From NCBI GenBank assembly GCA_020152595.1, contig JAIGNY010002242.1:703501-767500 (forward strand): 64,000 bases of DNA, in the 5' to 3' direction. Below the pieces are notes generated by a model, which was not told the DNA's origin, ran no database searches, and was given only the letters and a program-made list of their open reading frames with translations. The first letter of the stretch is position 1, and every line of letters starts with the position of its first letter. Made by a program: the position numbers and the translations under genes. Origin of the DNA: Chiridota heheva. Lineage: Eukaryota; Echinodermata; Holothuroidea; Apodida; Chiridotidae. Below are positions 36 to 27,650 of this stretch, piece after piece.

Positions 36-870
36 TTAAATAGACACTGCCCGATGATACATAAAAAAAATATATAAAAAAATACAGGAATCTATTACAC
101 AGAAGGTAACTTCTAAATGTTTAAATGAGGATAAGTTTTTAATAGAGTTAAATGAAGTGGGTAGGGAATTCCAATTCGCAATAGCAGAATATTTAAAATA
201 ATGTTGACTACTTGCTAAAGAGAAACGGGGAATGGAAAGTAATTTAGCATGTTGGGTATTGCAATCATGAAAAGAAGTATTTAGCAGAAAAAAAGAAGAA
301 GTTACGTGGTAGATTATCATTAATTTAGTTGAGTACAAATATTAGATTGTAATACTTGACTAGTTTAAATATGGTAAATTCACGAAAGAGAGGCTTAGAA
401 TGACTATTGTAGGGATTACAATATATTGCACACAACACTTTCCTTTGTAGAATGTACTGCTTATTGATATGAGTAGGGTAAGAATAACCCCAAACAATAC
501 AACAGTAAGATTTTTTTTAAAGTTAAGATAATAATATTATTTTATAGATTTGCAATGTTTTAAAACGAACGATGTTCTTTAGGCGATGGATTATACCAAT
601 GGCTTTAGAATCTGTATTACATATATTCTGAATATGTAGAATCCAAGTAAGATTATCGTCTAGGGTAGCTCCAAGAAATTTTGTAGAGTGAGAGAGGGGA
701 ACATCTTGGGTGGTGGCGCTCGGTGTCGAGATGACACATGAATCTTAACTCAAGGAATTTGTTTACCATTTCCACCAATATTTGTTTCAAAACATTCTTT
801 TGTTGATATGTGTTTGGTTTGTCTATCATTTGTAACCTCGTAAGAATTGTGGACACGATGCAGATTTCTA
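36..870 (-). pseudogene. 3' end of a LINE reverse transcriptase, CR1/L2-like, broken
   Basis: Read on the minus strand, this is the C-terminal (post-catalytic) part of a non-LTR retrotransposon polymerase. Around 510-420 the reading gives CCIVWGYSYPTHINKQYILQ, matching the 'YCNIVWG.xY.T.L..L..LQ' block that follows the thumb in CR1/L2-type LINEs. Further on, at 338-36, a frame ends with WNSLPTSFNSIKNLSSFKH, the usual C-terminal 'WN.LP......L..FK' block. A 'TKFLGATLDDNLTW'-like stretch lies near 690-650. These blocks are in different frames with stops between them, so the copy is dead. The catalytic RT domain is not visible; the copy is 5'-truncated near 870. The true 3' end may lie at or beyond the window edge. 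Family identity is by motif only; the exact clade is uncertain. Confidence 0.72.
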
Positions 871-1251
871 GATATTTATGTATTTTAAATTTTCCACTGA
901 GAACTTTAACTGCTGTCCTAGTGTTAAGCGGAAACTTAGCCTATATGCATGTATGTATTGGATTTATTTATAAAACCCGGATGGTTAAACAGAGATTGCT
1001 GTGCTACCTAACTATCAAGAAGTGTTGTGATTAAGTTTTTACCATATTTTTTGTTTTTTTGTGCATGTTGTCTACATAATTAATTGTTTTTGCTTTCTAA
1101 ACTTTTCTTATTTGTGAAATATTTGTTGATTTCTTTTGTTATTGGTTTGTATGGCGTTACTAACAGTATTACACACATTTTATAGCTTGTCATTGCAAGC
1201 TAGGTCTTTTGTATTGTTAGGCTTTGTTATTTTTTAAATCTAGTGTAGGCG

Positions 1252-1303
1252 TTTGTGTTGAGTGTAGGCTGATTGAGTTTGTGTTGAGTGTAGGCTCGTT
1301 GAG
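1252..1303 (+). repeat. Two 26-bp direct repeats in the LINE leader
   Basis: The unit TTTGTGTTGAGTGTAGGCTS... occurs twice back to back (1252-1277 and 1278-1303) with two differences. It lies about 90 bp upstream of the ORF1 start. Its role, if any, is unknown; LINE 5' leaders often hold promoter repeats, but that is inference only. Confidence 0.7.
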
Positions 1304-1394
1304 TGTGTATTCAAGTTAAGGTATTTCTTTAGCTATTGTTGGGCCTATTGTTTCAGTTGGTAGTTTTGTATTTGTTCATTTTAAGTGTATACGG

Positions 1395-17030: not shown

Positions 17031-17618
17031 ACATTAAAGAATTACTCCCATGGATTTTTAATTTAATGTATCTGATAATTTTAAGAAACAGTTTGGTAAA
17101 AGCCATGTTGATATTTCATTCTTGGAAGAAAATATTGAACTTTAAAGTTTTTCTTGTCCGCATAAAAATGACTTTCATACTGAGTTTAAGCCATCATTAT
17201 GATGTCATCACAGTATTTCCTATACTAATCTTTATGTATTTCTTCGAAAATTATCCCCAATTTTTCATAATTCAAATATAAGTTACAAAGAAGAGACTGG
17301 AAAACATTGTTGTAAATTTTATTCTACACTATCATTACTCATTTTTGAAGAAAAAAATGTTTCCAGATCAACTAGAAAATACAAAATTAATCTTCACAGA
17401 ACTACATAAAGAATAGTGGAGAAGTGTTGTGATGACATCATAATGATGACTTAGACTCAGACCAACAATCTCTTTTACGCAGACAAGAACAATCTTTACA
17501 ATCCAATACCTTCTTGTAGGAATAAGATATTAACTTGGCGTTTTCACCAATCGGTTTTTTTTATTGTTTTCTATCACATATATTGAAATGAAATTCCATG
17601 GGAATATTACTTTAAAAT
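17031..17618. mobile_element. Long palindromic MITE-like element, copy 1
   Basis: Left (about 17031-17260) and right (about 17390-17618) halves are diverged inverted copies. Outer ends are ATTACTCCCATGG and CCATGGGAATATTAC. Inside, TTGGTAAAAGCCATGTTGAT pairs with ATTAACTTGGCGTTTTCACC, and CATCATTATGATGTCATCAC pairs with GTGATGACATCATAATGATG. The open frame at 17066-17281 is a by-product. The same consensus words occur in the element at 19273-19885, so this is a family. With long arms, a small loop and no gene, it is probably non-autonomous; the parent transposon is unknown. Confidence 0.7.
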
Positions 17619-19272
<1,654 letters not shown>

Positions 19273-20728: not shown

Positions 20729-21458
20729 TTGATTTGTAACACTATATGCGGAAATTGAAGCACCTTAGCATATAAACAAACGTTTTGAAATTTCATTATA
20801 GAGGCCCTTTGAAAATGAGAAAATGAACTCTTATTCCGTTATGTACAAGTTTAAAGTCATTGATTACATTTGATTGAAAGGAGACTAGGATAAAAAATCT
20901 TCACGATGACTAGACTTCGTTTTTGTATTTTATAGAAATATTCATTTACAAGGGTTGTGACTTACAACCGTTAGATATGTCGTCAGACTAGTAGAAAAGA
21001 AAGGACCTTTGATAAAAACAAAAAGCAGCACAATTGGTTGTATGATATAAATCAGTTGTAAATTAATACTTAAATGTTACTCATTACATATATATTTTTG
21101 GTTGCATACTTAAAAGACATTCAAATTATGCACGTGCTTGGACGTTTAAAGCGCCGCCAATCAATCATATTCTACCATGACAGATTAAGACTAACTTTTG
21201 GCTTATTGTTGCAACGTTGTTTATAATCTACCATCATTGCAATGGCCGTTACTGGATGGTACTTCATTAAACACCAGCGATCCAAAATCACTATTTTGTT
21301 TATTTTGTTTCAGTGATTAATGATGAGTTTTCTAGTCGACAAAATTATACTGATGTCTCTATCATCATACAGTAGAACGGGAAGCTTTCTTCTTTGTTTT
21401 CTCTTATCTATTCTTCTACCTTTTTTTTCATATTAATAGTCTAGTGCCTATATCGATA
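20729..21458. other. No recognisable gene
   Basis: Nothing supported. The left end of the large TIR element follows. Confidence 0.55.
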
Positions 21459-21935
21459 ATCCAAAGTTTGTTCTACGCAATGTTTTTGGATGGTTTCTAT
21501 ACCTTTGAGACCCGCTGATTGAGAGTGATTTCACTCTTGTGACCTTGAGCGTTTTTAGATATCCAAGATAGCCGCAAAAACGACTGCCACTATATAAAAT
21601 TTGCTATATCTTTGTTCTTAGATCACCTATAAGAGTGGTTTTTTGTGTCCAAGACTAGGTTGTTAATATCATAGATTCTATCTCTGACCAAATCATACCT
21701 TTTGCCATGTCAGAATAACCAAAATGGCTGCCAAGATGGCCGTTACTATATGAGACATGTTATATCTTTGCTGTATAAAATTAAAGGGTGATTGTTGTAG
21801 CCAATACTCATACATTCCATTTCGGCCGAATGTTGAGACCTTTTGAAATGTTGGAATATCCAATATGGCTACTATATGGACCTTGAGATATCCAAGATAG
21901 CCGTTTTCACATAAAACGTGGCGTATCTCTGCTTT
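21459..21935. repeat. Left inverted repeat of the DNA transposon, with ~150-165-bp subrepeats
   Basis: The arm is built of related units marked by TATATCTTTG (21605, 21771; CGTATCTCTG at 21922), each preceded by a TATCCAAGATAGCCG-like word (21560, CCAAGATGGCCGTTAC at 21731, TATCCAAGATAGCCG at 21892). Units also share GAGTGGTTTTTTGTGTCCAA. Such subterminal arrays are typical transposase-binding regions in several DNA transposon groups; that role here is inference. Confidence 0.65.
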
Positions 21936-22273
21936 ATGTTTAGCAATCAGGGTTCTTGTTGCCTTTTGAGCACATATGGCGATGTTTTGCTTTAAAAACT
22001 AGGTTCTTTATGCCACAGATTTCATCTTGTGCTTATTTTGAATACATAATGAGAAATGTAGTGGGCAAAATTAAGGCAATATGACATAGCATTAAGTTGA
22101 CTGTCAAAAATTTCATCAGAATGTTTGAATTTTATTTGCTTATATATTTCTGGAAACTAAGAGTGAGTTTTAGTCCATCACTGCTTATGTTTCGATCTCT
22201 TCATCATCGTCTCATCATTTCTCTTCATCATTCCTAATCATCACTCATTTCCCATTTTTTGGTAAATGTCCAT

Positions 22274-24640
22274 TTAATAGCATTCACAAAAAAAAAAAAC
22301 TGTGCAAGCGAACTGAGCAGTTAAGCAACTTTCTGAAAAACATCCTTTTTCACTACATTGAATCATTTGAAAAAAATTCCGTCGTGCTGGATGCACACCA
22401 TTTGGCACTGTCACTGGTGTAAGCAGTTTGTTTGCTAAATCCTCTATCCAATTAAAGATTTTCATTCAATGCTGCTTTCCAAATACATGTTTGTAAATGA
22501 GTATGTTTCACATTTTCCTCAAAGGCTTCAGATATTGGTGGTAATGCTTTTAGTTTGTATGGTGTGAATAAACATTCTTCGCCATCTTGGATGATCACAT
22601 ATTGTACGTGGCATCAGACATGGTACCCTGGGTATTTCTCCCAAAGCAGGATGCAATAAATTAATTATCCTATTTTATAACATCATTCATATCAGCTTCG
22701 GGATCCTCAAGTGTGAAAAGCTCGTAACCCGTTTGTAGTCCATGGTTGTTTGCACCAATACCTTACAGTTGGGCTACTGCATCACAACTAAGAACACATG
22801 GACAGCCAGAAGATGCAAGGCTCACTCTTAAATGGTGCCTTCCATCACTAACTGGTATGTCAGCTTGCATTGGTTGTAATAATGAAATAACAGAAAAATG
22901 TTTGTATCATCAGCTATAACTTTGATGTGAGTTGCTCCCTGATTTGCCAAATGCACAACTTGCTGTGGTAGAATTACATCAGCTTCTTCATGGGCTGTCT
23001 TTAAGTCAGTTCTTTGTATCAAAAGACCTGTACTGAACTCTTGTCGAAATGATTTGGATACAGTAACAAGCAGTTTATGGTATATCTGTGGATGATCGCG
23101 GATCTGGATGATTCTTCACATTGCCTAATAATTGTTTACAAATTATAATGATGACCTGTACTTTGTTGCGGGAGACACTTAGAACAACTTTCAAGCAGAG
23201 ATGTGTGTGTATTTAGTATGTGAAGTCTGCTAGCATGCTCAGAGGCTGACCTGCACGTTTGATTTGGGTACCACTTTTAATGCTGTAATCTTACTAGCTT
23301 AGTTTGTTCAATATGTACTTAATAAAGTTAAAAGGTTCAATCCATTCAAGCCTATAGGGCTTATAGAGTTGATGCTTATACCCGGTTTCCATGGTTCTAA
23401 GCGGATGAGAGTACTTGACTCTCCTGGATAGGACACCAGTCCGTCACAGGGTTAAAAACTGGTACATATTTCACAGCTAAATGAGCTGGAGCAAATGTGA
23501 TAAAGCGTCGTGCTCAATTAGGACAGCACAGCGGTCTGGCTGAAAATTCGATCTCAGTACCTTTTAAGTGCGAGATTAACACTCTAACCACTGGGCTACT
23601 GCACTCCCATACGTTATAAAAACCATAGCATCCTATCCTTGGCATCTGATCTCAGACAAGCTGGCTTTTTTTTTGTGGGATGTCACTTTATTGCACGCCT
23701 TGCTGGAACTTTCATTTCTATTTAGTCCTTGATGAGATGGCTACAGGTGTAGAGACTTACATGTGGCCCAAAGTTTTGCGGCTAAAGGACGCACTTATAT
23801 GTCAATAATACCACGTCGACCATGTCTATAGCGCAAAAAAATGTTGTTTCAATGAACATGTCAGACCCTATTCAGTAACCAGCCTGCTGGCGTATCACAT
23901 GTTCACCTTTCAGGAATGATTTACACACCTCTTCTTGAAGATTCTCCATAGATCGCAGGTAGTGCAAACCGTATCTTGTGTAGTTGATCCATGTATGTCC
24001 AGCTGCAAATAGGTATAGCAGCATTGAACACAGTCTACTGGTATATTGGCCAGTCTCTCTCGCTTTCAGCTGGAATAAACCACATCATGATAAAAACCGG
24101 CTTGATCAGATTATCCACTCAGTAGCTATTCTGCTTTTTGCTGCCGTGCTTGCAAGGGCTTCCATCAGATCAATCTAATATTCTGATCTGTAGTGTTGCG
24201 TATAGTGTTGCGAATAATTTCTTCCGATATAAGTCAAAGGACTAGCGTATTTGTGGAAAATATTTTCTTGACAGCATACGATTAACTCCCCAAAAGGAAG
24301 ATTTTAGCGCAATTTCTAATCGATTTCCAGCCATCAATGTTTCTGCACTTCTAAGAAAACTCATTACCATATGCATAGCTTCAAGTCGTGGAATAGAATT
24401 GGGAAACATCTCTGGACGTGACCATCTGGTCTGCAATGAAGACTGTGTAAGTCGGTCCTGTCTATTTTGTGTGCCTTTGTGCCTCCACCATTGCAATTAT
24501 CAAGTATATACAATTTTGGTGCTGGTTTGAGACTTGCTAATTTGAAATTGTGAAAAGAGATGTTTGATTTATAAATGAAGCTCATAAATGCTGTGAATAA
24601 CATAGTCATGGACATAGAAACAAGTCTTTGACACAAAAAC
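22274..24640 (-). pseudogene. Uncharacterised metazoan multi-domain protein, transposon-borne, broken
   Basis: Minus-strand blocks in order: 'IPRLEAMHMVMSFLRSAETL' (near 24395-24335), resembling a 'LGGFHMLMSFLG.IG.LM' block; 'LFAAGHTWINYTRYGLHYLR' (near 24015-23957), then 'EEVCKSFLKGEHVIRQQAG' and 'IGSDMFIETTF' (to about 23845); after a SINE, 'KTAHEEADVILPQQVVHLA' and 'THIKVIADDTNIFLLFHYY' (23000-22890); last, 'LLTPVTVPNGVHPARRNFFQ' and a Cys-rich end (C-S-E-K-G-C...C...C...F-F-C-E-C, 22375-22280). I recognise this block order from a large, unnamed protein family expanded in cnidarians and other marine invertebrates. Stops and shifts occur between blocks, so it is dead. The function is unknown; the HEEAD/ADDT part may be nuclease-like, and the location inside inverted repeats points to a transposition protein. 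Confidence 0.6.
23340..23610 (-). mobile_element. tRNA-derived SINE, copy 1
   Basis: On the minus strand the head reads GTGCAGTAGCCCAGTGGTTA (box A TAGCCCAGTGG, near 23595-23585) and, about 35 bases later, GAGATCGAATTTTC (weakened box B, near 23556-23543). The body contains GTGACGGACTGGTGTCCTAT and the 3' part AGCCCTATAGGCTTGAATGG. The same body occurs at 27877-28065. RNA polymerase III promoter boxes and shared body define a SINE. It sits inside the larger DNA transposon, so it inserted later. Confidence 0.65.
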
Positions 24641-24659
24641 CACTCAAATTGTAGGTCTT

Positions 24660-24963
24660 CTAAAAGCAGTGTTATACATATTTTGCACGGTGGCAGATAT
24701 CTTGGCCGCCATTTTGGTTATTGCGAAATAGCGAAAGGCAATGAAAAGGTCGATAATGGAATCTATGACATGAACAACCTAATCTTGGGCACAAAACCAC
24801 TCATATAAGTGCTATAAACGCAAAGATACAACATGTTTTACATCTTGGATATCTAAAAACGCCCAAAGTCACCAGGGTAGCATCACTTGAGATTCTGAAT
24901 CAGCGGTCTCAAAGATATAGAAGCTCCAAAAAAACATTGCGTGGACCAATTATTTTGGGTTGA
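24660..24963. repeat. Right inverted repeat of the DNA transposon
   Basis: Inverted copy of the left arm: GCCGCCATTTTGGTTATT (24701-24718), AACCTAATCTTGGGCACAAA (24776-24795), CTTGGATATCTAAAAACGCC (24847-24866), CAGCGGTCTCAAAGATATAG (24901-24920) and ACATTGCGTGGACCAA (24934-24949). Two subrepeat starts are seen about 153 bp apart (CAAAGATACAAC at 24821 and GTTATACATA near 24670). Confidence 0.7.
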
Positions 24964-26555
24964 GCTTCAAATTGGGGTTTGGTAAAGGCCTGTAAATAAG
25001 ATTTTCAAGGGGGAACTTCAGGCTCAGTGATTAACTTTAATTGATGATATGAATTGATTGTTTACACTCTCTTTACACAAAGGTTCCTCTTACTATTTCT
25101 ATGATATGAGAAAAAGTATGGAAAATAACAACTTGGCTCGAAACAGCGATTTTAAAATGTTCAAATTTCTTCAAATAGCTTAGTTTTAATTTCCGAAATT
25201 GCAGGTTATAGTATCGTTGTTCACTAGACGTGGGGTCCATTATTGCCTAAAATTTTGGAATATAGTTGATTTAACAAAATGACAGCAAGATGTCTGGAAT
25301 GTTCTTAAATATTCAGCCTTTAAGTTCATTACTTTACAAAATTTATCAATGACTTTCTAATCACGTAATGCACCCCAAGCTTTACGTATAATTTATCTCA
25401 TTTTCTCCTCTTCCTAGCAGAAATCTAGACAAAAGTGCTTTAAATTCACTGTATTTACGACAAATGTACCAAAATTAGTTGCATAACAGTTTAAATATGT
25501 TGATATATTAGCTGTGATATAAATCTCACATGATTATATAGCAATCTTAATTAACATTTTAAGTTCAATAACCTGTAACACAGAAGTATGGGCATTCATG
25601 CTTGATAATACTATTGATACTGTTGAAACCTTTGACAAATCATCATCATGCAGTTGGCTATAAGTGGTTTTCGCGAAATTTAAGAAGAGGATAACGAAGG
25701 CTGATATAGGGTGCAAATGTTCTGTTCAGTCAGTTTCTGGCGCCGTTTATTTTCTGATGTTGATACAATTATTGGTTGCTTCTTTTAAAACCAAAACATC
25801 ATCAAAGCATACTTGCTGCCATATAATGAGTTTTTGGTATATAATAATAGACATTCCAGCCAATTTTGTGTTTTCTCTCAATTTTCAATTTTATTAGACT
25901 TGTGGAAAGAACATGCATCATTGCTATTAGTAATTATCAAAAATCATTATTTTATGTGTATTCTAAAATAATCTAGGTCCGTGTTAGTGTATGTATTTAT
26001 TTGAGTACAGTATTGAATTTTGAATGACGTAGTTGAGTTTATTTTGTGGGTAATGTACATGTACCAGTAGTTGTGTAATTGTATTGTAAGGTACTCCTGT
26101 AAATGCACTTTACGGCCCGGAAGTCTCATTGTACCAGTCACTCCAACAATCATGTCCGTTAGCGGAATTATTGCAGGCTCATCAGCGTTAAATTGAATAT
26201 GATAGAGCAACACATGTGTACGGGATCCGCTAAAACAGTAGCAAGAATCATATTTCTATCAAATTTTGAATGATAAGTGCAGAGGTCAAGCATGACAGAC
26301 GACTTTTAAAAGGCGGAAAGGTGAAAACAGTATTTAAAACGTTTAATATTTATTTACAGTATTTACAACTAATTACTAACAGTGAAACTAGTAAAGGTGA
26401 CATCACATTTTCAAATTTTTGAAAGACTTTGTAAAAAAGTTAATTGAATTATTATTTGAGGTTCTGTAAGTTACAGCAATTAGGTGTGTGTTAGCCGAAA
26501 AGTAGACTGAAATTTAATGATACAGTTGTAATCTGCTTTTAAAAGGTATTTTTAG
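24964..26555. other. No recognisable gene
   Basis: AT-rich sequence with only short, motif-free open frames (for example 25664-25897 plus, 25947-26213 minus). I see nothing supportable. Confidence 0.55.
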
Positions 26556-26657: not shown

Positions 26658-27276
26658 AAAGAAGGTGTGGCTTGTTTTTGAGAGTTCTGCTTGTTATCCG
26701 CTATCATTTAAAAGAGCTTGGCCACTGAACTACTACCTATGCACGCATTATCTTGTGAGTCAAGTGCAGTACAAGTCTACTACTGACACACTTCAGCAAA
26801 ATTACATAACACATGGTTGTCTCTATTATCTACAATTCTTCGCTTGTTGTAAATGTTACGCAAACAAGCTTCCAACAGAAAAGCCGATACACACTAGATA
26901 GGAACAGGATACAAAATTGATGGCAGACAAGCGATGGAAACCTTCTCTCCCCTACGATTCGGATAAGAATCAATATAAAAAAGTTCTTTATTTGAAGATT
27001 AAATTTGGCAGATCGATGCAAAATTGAAAATTGATAACAGCACGTGTGGGAACTTTCATATTTTAATTTTACATGCAAAAAGTACAGAGGATCACAGATG
27101 GTATCTACATGATGTCTATATACCTAAATAATAATAATATCACAGTCCTTGTAATGTTTACTGTAACAGTATAAATATTCATATATTGTATTTTATTGAA
27201 TCTATTAAAAGAACAACAAACTTTTATTCAATAAAGGTACAAATTTTGCCACAGTTTTTCCGGTCTTTGGTTGCAG
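26658..27276. other. No recognisable gene
   Basis: Short frames at 26644-26901 and 26830-27078 show no motif or family. Otherwise nothing is seen. Confidence 0.5.
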
Positions 27277-27650
27277 TTTGTCAGTCAAAATTTGTTGAAC
27301 ATTTAATTTTTTTTAATCCAATGCATCGATTGTGAATTTGATGCAAATTTGTGACTGGACGACTTTTGGACTGGACTATGTAAATCTTTTGTTTATCATT
27401 TCTCATTATTCGTAGAAATAAGTGGACTATATTGTGACTACAATTAGGTCTTTACCATAGCCAATTTGTCAATCAAAATTTGTTGAACATTTAAAAAAAT
27501 TTAATCCATTGCATCGATTGTGAATTTGATGCGGATTTGTGACTGGACGACTTTTGGACTGGACTATGTAAATCCTTTGTTTATAATTTTTCATTATTCG
27601 TAGAAATGAGTGGATCATATTGTGACCACAAGTGGGTCTTTACCATAGCC
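27277..27650. repeat. Tandem duplication, two units of about 187 bp
   Basis: Units 27277-27464 and 27465-27650 both run from TTTGTCARTCAAAATTTGTT through GTGACTGGACGACTTTTGGA and ATTATTCGTAGAAAT to GGTCTTTACCATAGCC. Similarity is about 90% by eye. No coding signal. Confidence 0.9.

Follow-up and report, generated by a model that had tools for sequence, protein, structure and literature searches.

Between two inverted repeats about 3 kb apart, the genome of Chiridota heheva carries the broken remains of a gene, and the question raised by this locus is whether repeats and gene form one mobile element and, if so, of what kind. We analysed the surrounding stretch of 64,000 nucleotides (assembly GCA_020152595.1, contig JAIGNY010002242.1, positions 703,501 to 767,500 of the forward strand; hereafter the window) together with related copies in the 1.10 Gb host genome. 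The locus is a broken, old (fossil) copy of a DNA transposon, about 3.55 kb long and on the minus strand. Gene and terminal inverted repeats (TIRs) were found together in two lineages of this one genome, which also contains relatives with intact long open reading frames (ORFs). We consider it likely that the element in the window is a dead, TIR-flanked DNA transposon of Academ (AcademX) type, whose autonomous copies encode a DUF6589 region, a FEN/XPG-like nuclease and a cysteine-rich (Cys-rich) tail.

The decayed copy in the window

The two repeat arms (21458-21737 and 24961-24699) align with a score of 179, while 100 shuffles gave 28 at most; in the window copy these TIRs are imperfect and about 280 bp long. 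A preliminary description, made by a model from the letters alone, had placed minus-strand coding blocks in a fixed order between inverted repeats, and this arrangement was borne out, with arms and blocks located as given below. Aligning other copies, as proposed there, yielded the 3' terminus, a T at 21437, as well as 3-bp target duplications; the true ends lie slightly outside the 21459..24963 first suggested. On the 5' side the last recognisable TIR base is 24982, and other copies suggest an end near 24994. Because about 12 bp at the very 5' edge have decayed, the window copy's own target duplication is unreadable.

21437..24994, minus strand: whole decayed element, 3' terminus recognisable (TAGTCTAGTGCC), 5' terminus placed from other copies
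21437..21737, plus strand: 3' terminal inverted repeat (arm on the gene's 3' side), starting TAGTCTAGTGCC
24699..24982, minus strand: 5' terminal inverted repeat; the ~12 bp at its outer edge, TAGTCTAGTGC elsewhere in the family, have decayed
24242..24496, minus strand: DUF6589-region coding remnant PRLEAMHMVMSFLRSAETLMAGNRLE, where the majority of copies reads PRLGGMHMLMSFV.CVGTLMAGSGLE
23872..24084, minus strand: coding remnant AAGHTWINYTRYGLHYLRSME, the equivalent stretch of which matches Pfam DUF6589 in other copies
23839..23868, minus strand: coding remnant GSDMFIETTF, where the proposed catalytic Glu lies
23327..23632, no strand assigned: insert like a short interspersed element (SINE), an independent high-copy repeat, edges approximate, also in fossil copy C1405
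23246..23326, minus strand: nuclease block 2 remnant (FIKYILNKLS..DYSIKSGTQIKRAGQ; majority FIKYTLNKLNQCDVHLVFDRYYDYSIKSGTRTERAGQ)
22828..23115, minus strand: nuclease blocks HEEAD and ADDTN, with HEEADVILPQQ and ADDTNIFLLFHYY in this frame
22658..22834, minus strand: GCD...GIG block remnant and following region, in another frame
22277..22456, minus strand: Cys-rich C-terminal remnant

The block MHMVMSFLRSAETL sits in the minus-strand frame 24242-24496 and the block AAGHTWINYTRYGLHYLR in the frame 23872-24084. The gene itself is broken: it contains stops, runs through several frames and lacks about 180 codons that the majority sequence of the other copies contains, their place being occupied by the inserted repeat at about 23327-23632. 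This SINE-like insert is itself repeated in the genome (2,531 first-look candidates, 40 scored), and since it is also present in the copy on contig C1405, an insert-bearing derivative may have multiplied. Among 21 aligned copies, the window copy is the most diverged from the majority, with 20.3% compared to 6.3-15.7% for the others.

Gene, ends and target duplications in two lineages

When the genome was searched with the gene region, 40 of 2,645 candidates were scored and yielded 104 matches; 20 fossil gene copies were fetched, some in stretches that end inside the element. Nine of the 20 possess both TIRs; the 5' TIR was detected in 12 and the 3' TIR in 14, with at least one TIR in 17 copies and neither in three within the stretch fetched. 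Other genomic copies that share both the ends and the gene, on which the preliminary description had made its proposal depend, were hence found. Allowing up to 3 mismatches, the fossil end patterns occur genome-wide as 25 3' ends and 35 5' ends, while the reversed-pattern controls gave 0. Two short copies keep both ends, L039 with ~0.85 kb and L052 with ~0.46 kb, and these look like non-autonomous derivatives.

The second lineage is young. Its elements measure ~6.8 kb, have the same architecture as the fossil family and are 98-99% identical to each other (98.4-99.2% over >5 kb for L094, L095, L097 and L099); for the L097 protein, 53 of 2,201 candidates were scored, and 71 places in the genome matched. 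The terminus reads TAGTCTGG in the young and TAGTCTAG in the fossil elements, the end starts with TAGTCTGGTTGCAAAT and TAGTCTAGTGCCCAAA, respectively, and TAGTCT[AG]G is common to both lineages. With at most 1 mismatch the young end pattern was detected 133 times genome-wide (63 + 70 by strand; control 0). Among the first 100 of these hits we saw 41 facing pairs spaced by 5.2-7.0 kb, 34 of them by 6.7-6.9 kb, and 32 of the 41 pairs enclose a match to the L097 protein.

Could the inverted repeats then belong to a separate element, with the gene as an unrelated passenger or host gene? From the window alone gene and repeats cannot be separated, and 11 of the 20 fossil gene copies have at most one TIR within the retrieved sequence. 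Gene and both ends, however, stand together in the nine other fossil copies, most listed young pairs enclose the gene in the same manner (the 32 of 41), and the two lineages have like termini, so that we hold this to be the least probable of the explanations considered.

In the young lineage we examined 14 copies at both ends, ten from the listed pairs and four fetched, and found an exact 3-bp target-site duplication in 13 of them. In a permutation test of 13 copies, from which C3701 was excluded because of its changed left end, all 39 of 39 positions were identical (permutation mean 18.4; 0/4,000 as high); no other duplication length from 2 to 10 stands out in the young copies. The fossil sample also consists of 14 copies with both ends, five of which assume that ends 4-8 kb apart belong to one copy. 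Here, 25 of 42 positions are identical for a 3-bp duplication outside the terminal T/A (permutation mean 13.3; 0/4,000), and the duplication is exact in four copies (mean 0.64, p 0.001). This result, 3 bp at offset 1, comes from 36 offset/length combinations tried, among which a 5-bp stretch round the same three positions gave p 0.0003 and 2 bp at offset 0 gave p 0.019, with p >0.06 for the rest. With gene and TIRs in one mobile element and duplications next to them, the earlier proposal that this protein family is the product of a DNA transposon is supported.

Two other readings of the fossil flanks were discarded. A TA dinucleotide duplication had been suspected because most flanks read T|AGTC...GACT|A; this T/A, however, forms the last base of the TIR itself, and the bases that match are found beyond it. 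The absence of any duplication in the fossil family was rejected on the same offset/length permutation evidence.

One fossil insertion sits in a repeat for which empty paralogs are available, and of 896 candidates, 40 were scored, each of which runs across the joined flanks. The majority of 20 aligned empty paralogs reads GACATCATAATG, while the filled site shows GACAT and GATCAAAATG on its two sides. This comparison fits a CAT duplication with later changes, with some doubt left by the repeat's variation and a nearby indel. The window itself contains a copy of this high-copy repeat at 17034-17620 (the 896 genome candidates are those for a 120-bp stretch of it), and because another copy, on contig C3447, holds a fossil transposon, the window copy of the repeat is an empty-site paralog.

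Some further features of the copies and of the window were observed. Within the fossil copy L028 (4563-5556), the coding piece that surrounds the GCD motif recurs about a dozen times as a 77-bp tandem repeat; in L019 and L017, tandem arrays of short units lie upstream of the gene. Diverged flanks (~84%) are shared by L026/L028 at the 5' flank and by L011/L047 at the 3' flank, and hence some copies spread within larger duplications or other repeats. Just beyond the fossil copy in L022 (~153-1350, minus strand) lies a 399-residue open frame containing ADNVDHNIVTLDGKGTFHSMG, a stretch known from similar uncharacterised invertebrate proteins; this frame perhaps represents another related element. 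In the window, a nearly perfect (TA)n microsatellite-like run of ~180 bp (18263-18441) and a 188-bp tandem repeat in 2 copies, 90% identical (27274-27649), were also seen.

The encoded protein

In the column majority of 21 copies, the window copy included, a single stop-free frame spans 790 codons, and a second alignment of nine copies extended it upstream to a joined translation of 951 residues, again without a stop. It contains a DUF6589 segment followed by FEN/XPG-like blocks, and the Cys-rich tail comes next in another frame; an unbroken frame through to the Cys-rich end was seen only in intact relatives, not in the fossil majority. Mismatches to the majority are even across the three codon positions (1356/1258/1320 among 38,312 letters), which argues for a coding parent that then decayed free of selection.

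In its N-terminal half, the majority translation matches Pfam DUF6589 (PF20231) with 26.6 bits (E 3e-6, profile positions 275-337; cut-off 27), and among seven verbatim copy fragments scanned, L027, L014 and L020 gave 24.8, 23.6 and 13.2 bits. The fossil family covers only ~272-337 of the 410 positions and stays just below the curated cut-off, whereas the intact relatives L091 and L093 match over 12-373 and 8-367 and exceed it with 40.7 and 35.1 bits, as does L097 with 28.6 bits. In a genome-wide search DUF6589 was matched 27 times, several times in long open frames, and 0 times in 14 control genomes. L091 is a single ORF of 1,767 residues and L093 has an open frame of 1,831; both carry the DUF6589 region, the nuclease blocks and the Cys-rich tail. 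The family had been described as unnamed, which is half right: part of the protein is Pfam DUF6589. Our literature search, outside of which Repbase, Dfam and further papers lie, did not find the term DUF6589, and the link between DUF6589 and these elements may be new. Probably the DUF6589 region is the transposase.

The long intact frames of L091 and L093, whose own TIRs are unproven, speak for a family of host genes, such as repair nucleases, enlarged through ordinary duplication and accompanied by pseudogenes. This history is very improbable in view of the TIRs and 3-bp duplications in two multi-copy lineages, the dispersed copies of 98-99% identity and the even decay at all codon positions. 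L093 is also repeated, since L096, on another contig, is 98% identical to it. For L091 alone the host-gene reading may still apply. A TAGTCT-based TIR search of L091 and L093 furnished one candidate pair, in L091, without a matching duplication. A single TAGTCT/AGACTA pair lies around each of the long open frames (L091 922-7808; L093 1-6945), the 3-mers that flank the L091 pair being different (AAC vs TCC), and these pairs could be TIR ends or chance.

In an alignment of 15 rows, several of them fragments, GD/FD, one His and one E line up in the DUF6589 part of the intact relatives, and V[DE][AG], VFD, HEE[AG]D, DxD and G[CS]D line up in the nuclease part. Departures are the first nuclease block of L091 and L092, which has E in place of D, the loss of several blocks in L098, a frame shift at the last block of L094 and a second fragment of L027 that is unaligned to any block. 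Judged by eye, the acidic blocks (first D, VFD, EE.D, D.D, G[CS]D) are collinear with the motif order of FEN1.

The preliminary description had seen a nuclease-type core of the PIN/XPG type in the HEEAD/ADDT part, and motif order and fold search support this, not Pfam. An 11-row profile searched against the PDB returned four sequences, all of them human Exonuclease 1 (E 0.15-1.1), and in the two of the four alignments viewed, two blocks are collinear and in the right order. Single-sequence PDB searches gave nothing relevant, and the one match obtained with a DUF6589-part profile was irrelevant. The fold model of L091 (901 residues) reaches predicted local distance difference test (pLDDT) values of mostly 60-91 in the nuclease core (residues 561-800), with a dip at 631-650. 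In a Foldseek search against the PDB, the best 8 of 282 matches are Rat1, Xrn1 and T5 FEN (probability 0.84-1.00, E 0.007-0.1), and in BFVD the best six of 182 (E 6.2e-4 to 0.013; 2 of 182 below 0.001) comprise XRN exonucleases and one FEN-1. Motifs and model together make a good but not conclusive case that the nuclease part belongs to the FEN/XPG/Xrn superfamily. It resembles the 5'-nucleases FEN1/EXO1/XPG and Rat1/Xrn1/T5 FEN in the order of its acidic blocks and in its best structural matches, with a sequence similarity below significance, and differs from them in having a DUF6589 region and a Cys-rich tail joined to it.

Probable Academ kinship, proposed mechanism and meaning

The architecture, the TIRs and the 3-bp duplication fit AcademX. 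AcademX elements carry an XPG-type nuclease. In the literature used here, AcademX duplications are given as 3 or 4 bp and those of AcademH as 9 or 10 bp, a difference tied to the encoded nuclease or helicase (PMC10045372); 3 bp is also stated for Academ as such (PMC5199201), AcademH is tied to helicases (PMC10799480), and Academ is counted among the DDE transposons (PMC10294476, PMC9587614, PMC9004415). The element shares with AcademX the TIRs, the 3-bp duplication and, putatively, the nuclease, and no helicase was found among Pfam matches up to E 5 in the frames of L091, L093, L097, L096 and L095. With AcademH it has the superfamily name in common, while the helicase and the 9-10 bp duplications were not seen in it. 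Scans of viral contigs and of a phage collection gave no relatives.

Alternatively, the element could be a DNA transposon as described that forms a superfamily separate from Academ and acquired its XPG-like nuclease independently. The Academ likeness, which is one of architecture and duplication length, and the absence of the term DUF6589 from the literature searched leave room for this. A nuclease combined with a 3- or 4-bp duplication is, however, the very combination published for AcademX (PMC10045372), and 3 bp is the length given for Academ (PMC5199201), and we therefore regard a separate superfamily as unlikely. Academ, named in the preliminary description as one possible home, is the best fit by architecture and 3-bp duplication. 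We take the element to be a member of an already known kind.

Several results weigh against the assignment to an Academ-like transposon with a FEN/XPG-like nuclease. The fossil duplications are exact in only 4 of 14 pairs and have no matching position in 3 of 14, and in the young C3701 the outer bases ATT and TTA are unlike, one end having changed. Pfam DUF6589 is matched neither by the window's own fragments nor by four of the seven copy fragments scanned verbatim, one of these four stemming from the nuclease part. Pfam XPG/PIN models do not match the nuclease part, whether in the majority, in copy fragments or in relatives. The predicted folds are poor for the decayed copy (pLDDT 39.7) and low on average for L091 (51.8); structure prediction, proposed earlier as a check, thus gave a nuclease part resembling Rat1/Xrn1/T5 FEN and no reliable DDE fold, the DUF6589 part of the L091 model being too poor. 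None of the 282 Foldseek matches to the PDB lies below E 0.001, and the whole-model template modelling (TM) scores are low, the best being 0.48 (T5 FEN, by target length). Finally L091, the lineage used for the fold model, has no proven TIR or duplication. Our confidence is lowered slightly because the Cys-rich tail falls outside the majority frame and one young copy has no duplication.

TIRs, duplications, gene content and decay are direct observations, and from these we infer how the element may move. Most likely it would work by cut-and-paste transposition. The DUF6589 part, the proposed DDE core, would bind and cleave the ends and insert them, by a 3-bp staggered joining, into target DNA. 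During excision or integration the nuclease part may help with cutting or trimming of ends or flaps, and the Cys-rich tail may aid DNA binding. A more specific scheme is conceivable, though we find it doubtful: with DUF6589 as the transposase core, the fused FEN/XPG-type structure-specific nuclease would be a second catalytic centre that cuts the strand or flap left by the DDE centre and so sets the 3-bp stagger.

In summary, a Pfam family of unknown function gains a concrete identity as the product of a DNA transposon. The protein family is widespread in cnidarian and other marine genomes, and at least part of this unnamed animal family consists of transposon products; a large set of uncharacterised invertebrate proteins would share that identity. 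With its long open frames, its 133 end hits and 3-bp duplications in 13 of the 14 copies examined, the young relative opens the role of the XPG-like domain to direct testing. Where genome annotations list such proteins among the host genes, they would have to be corrected.

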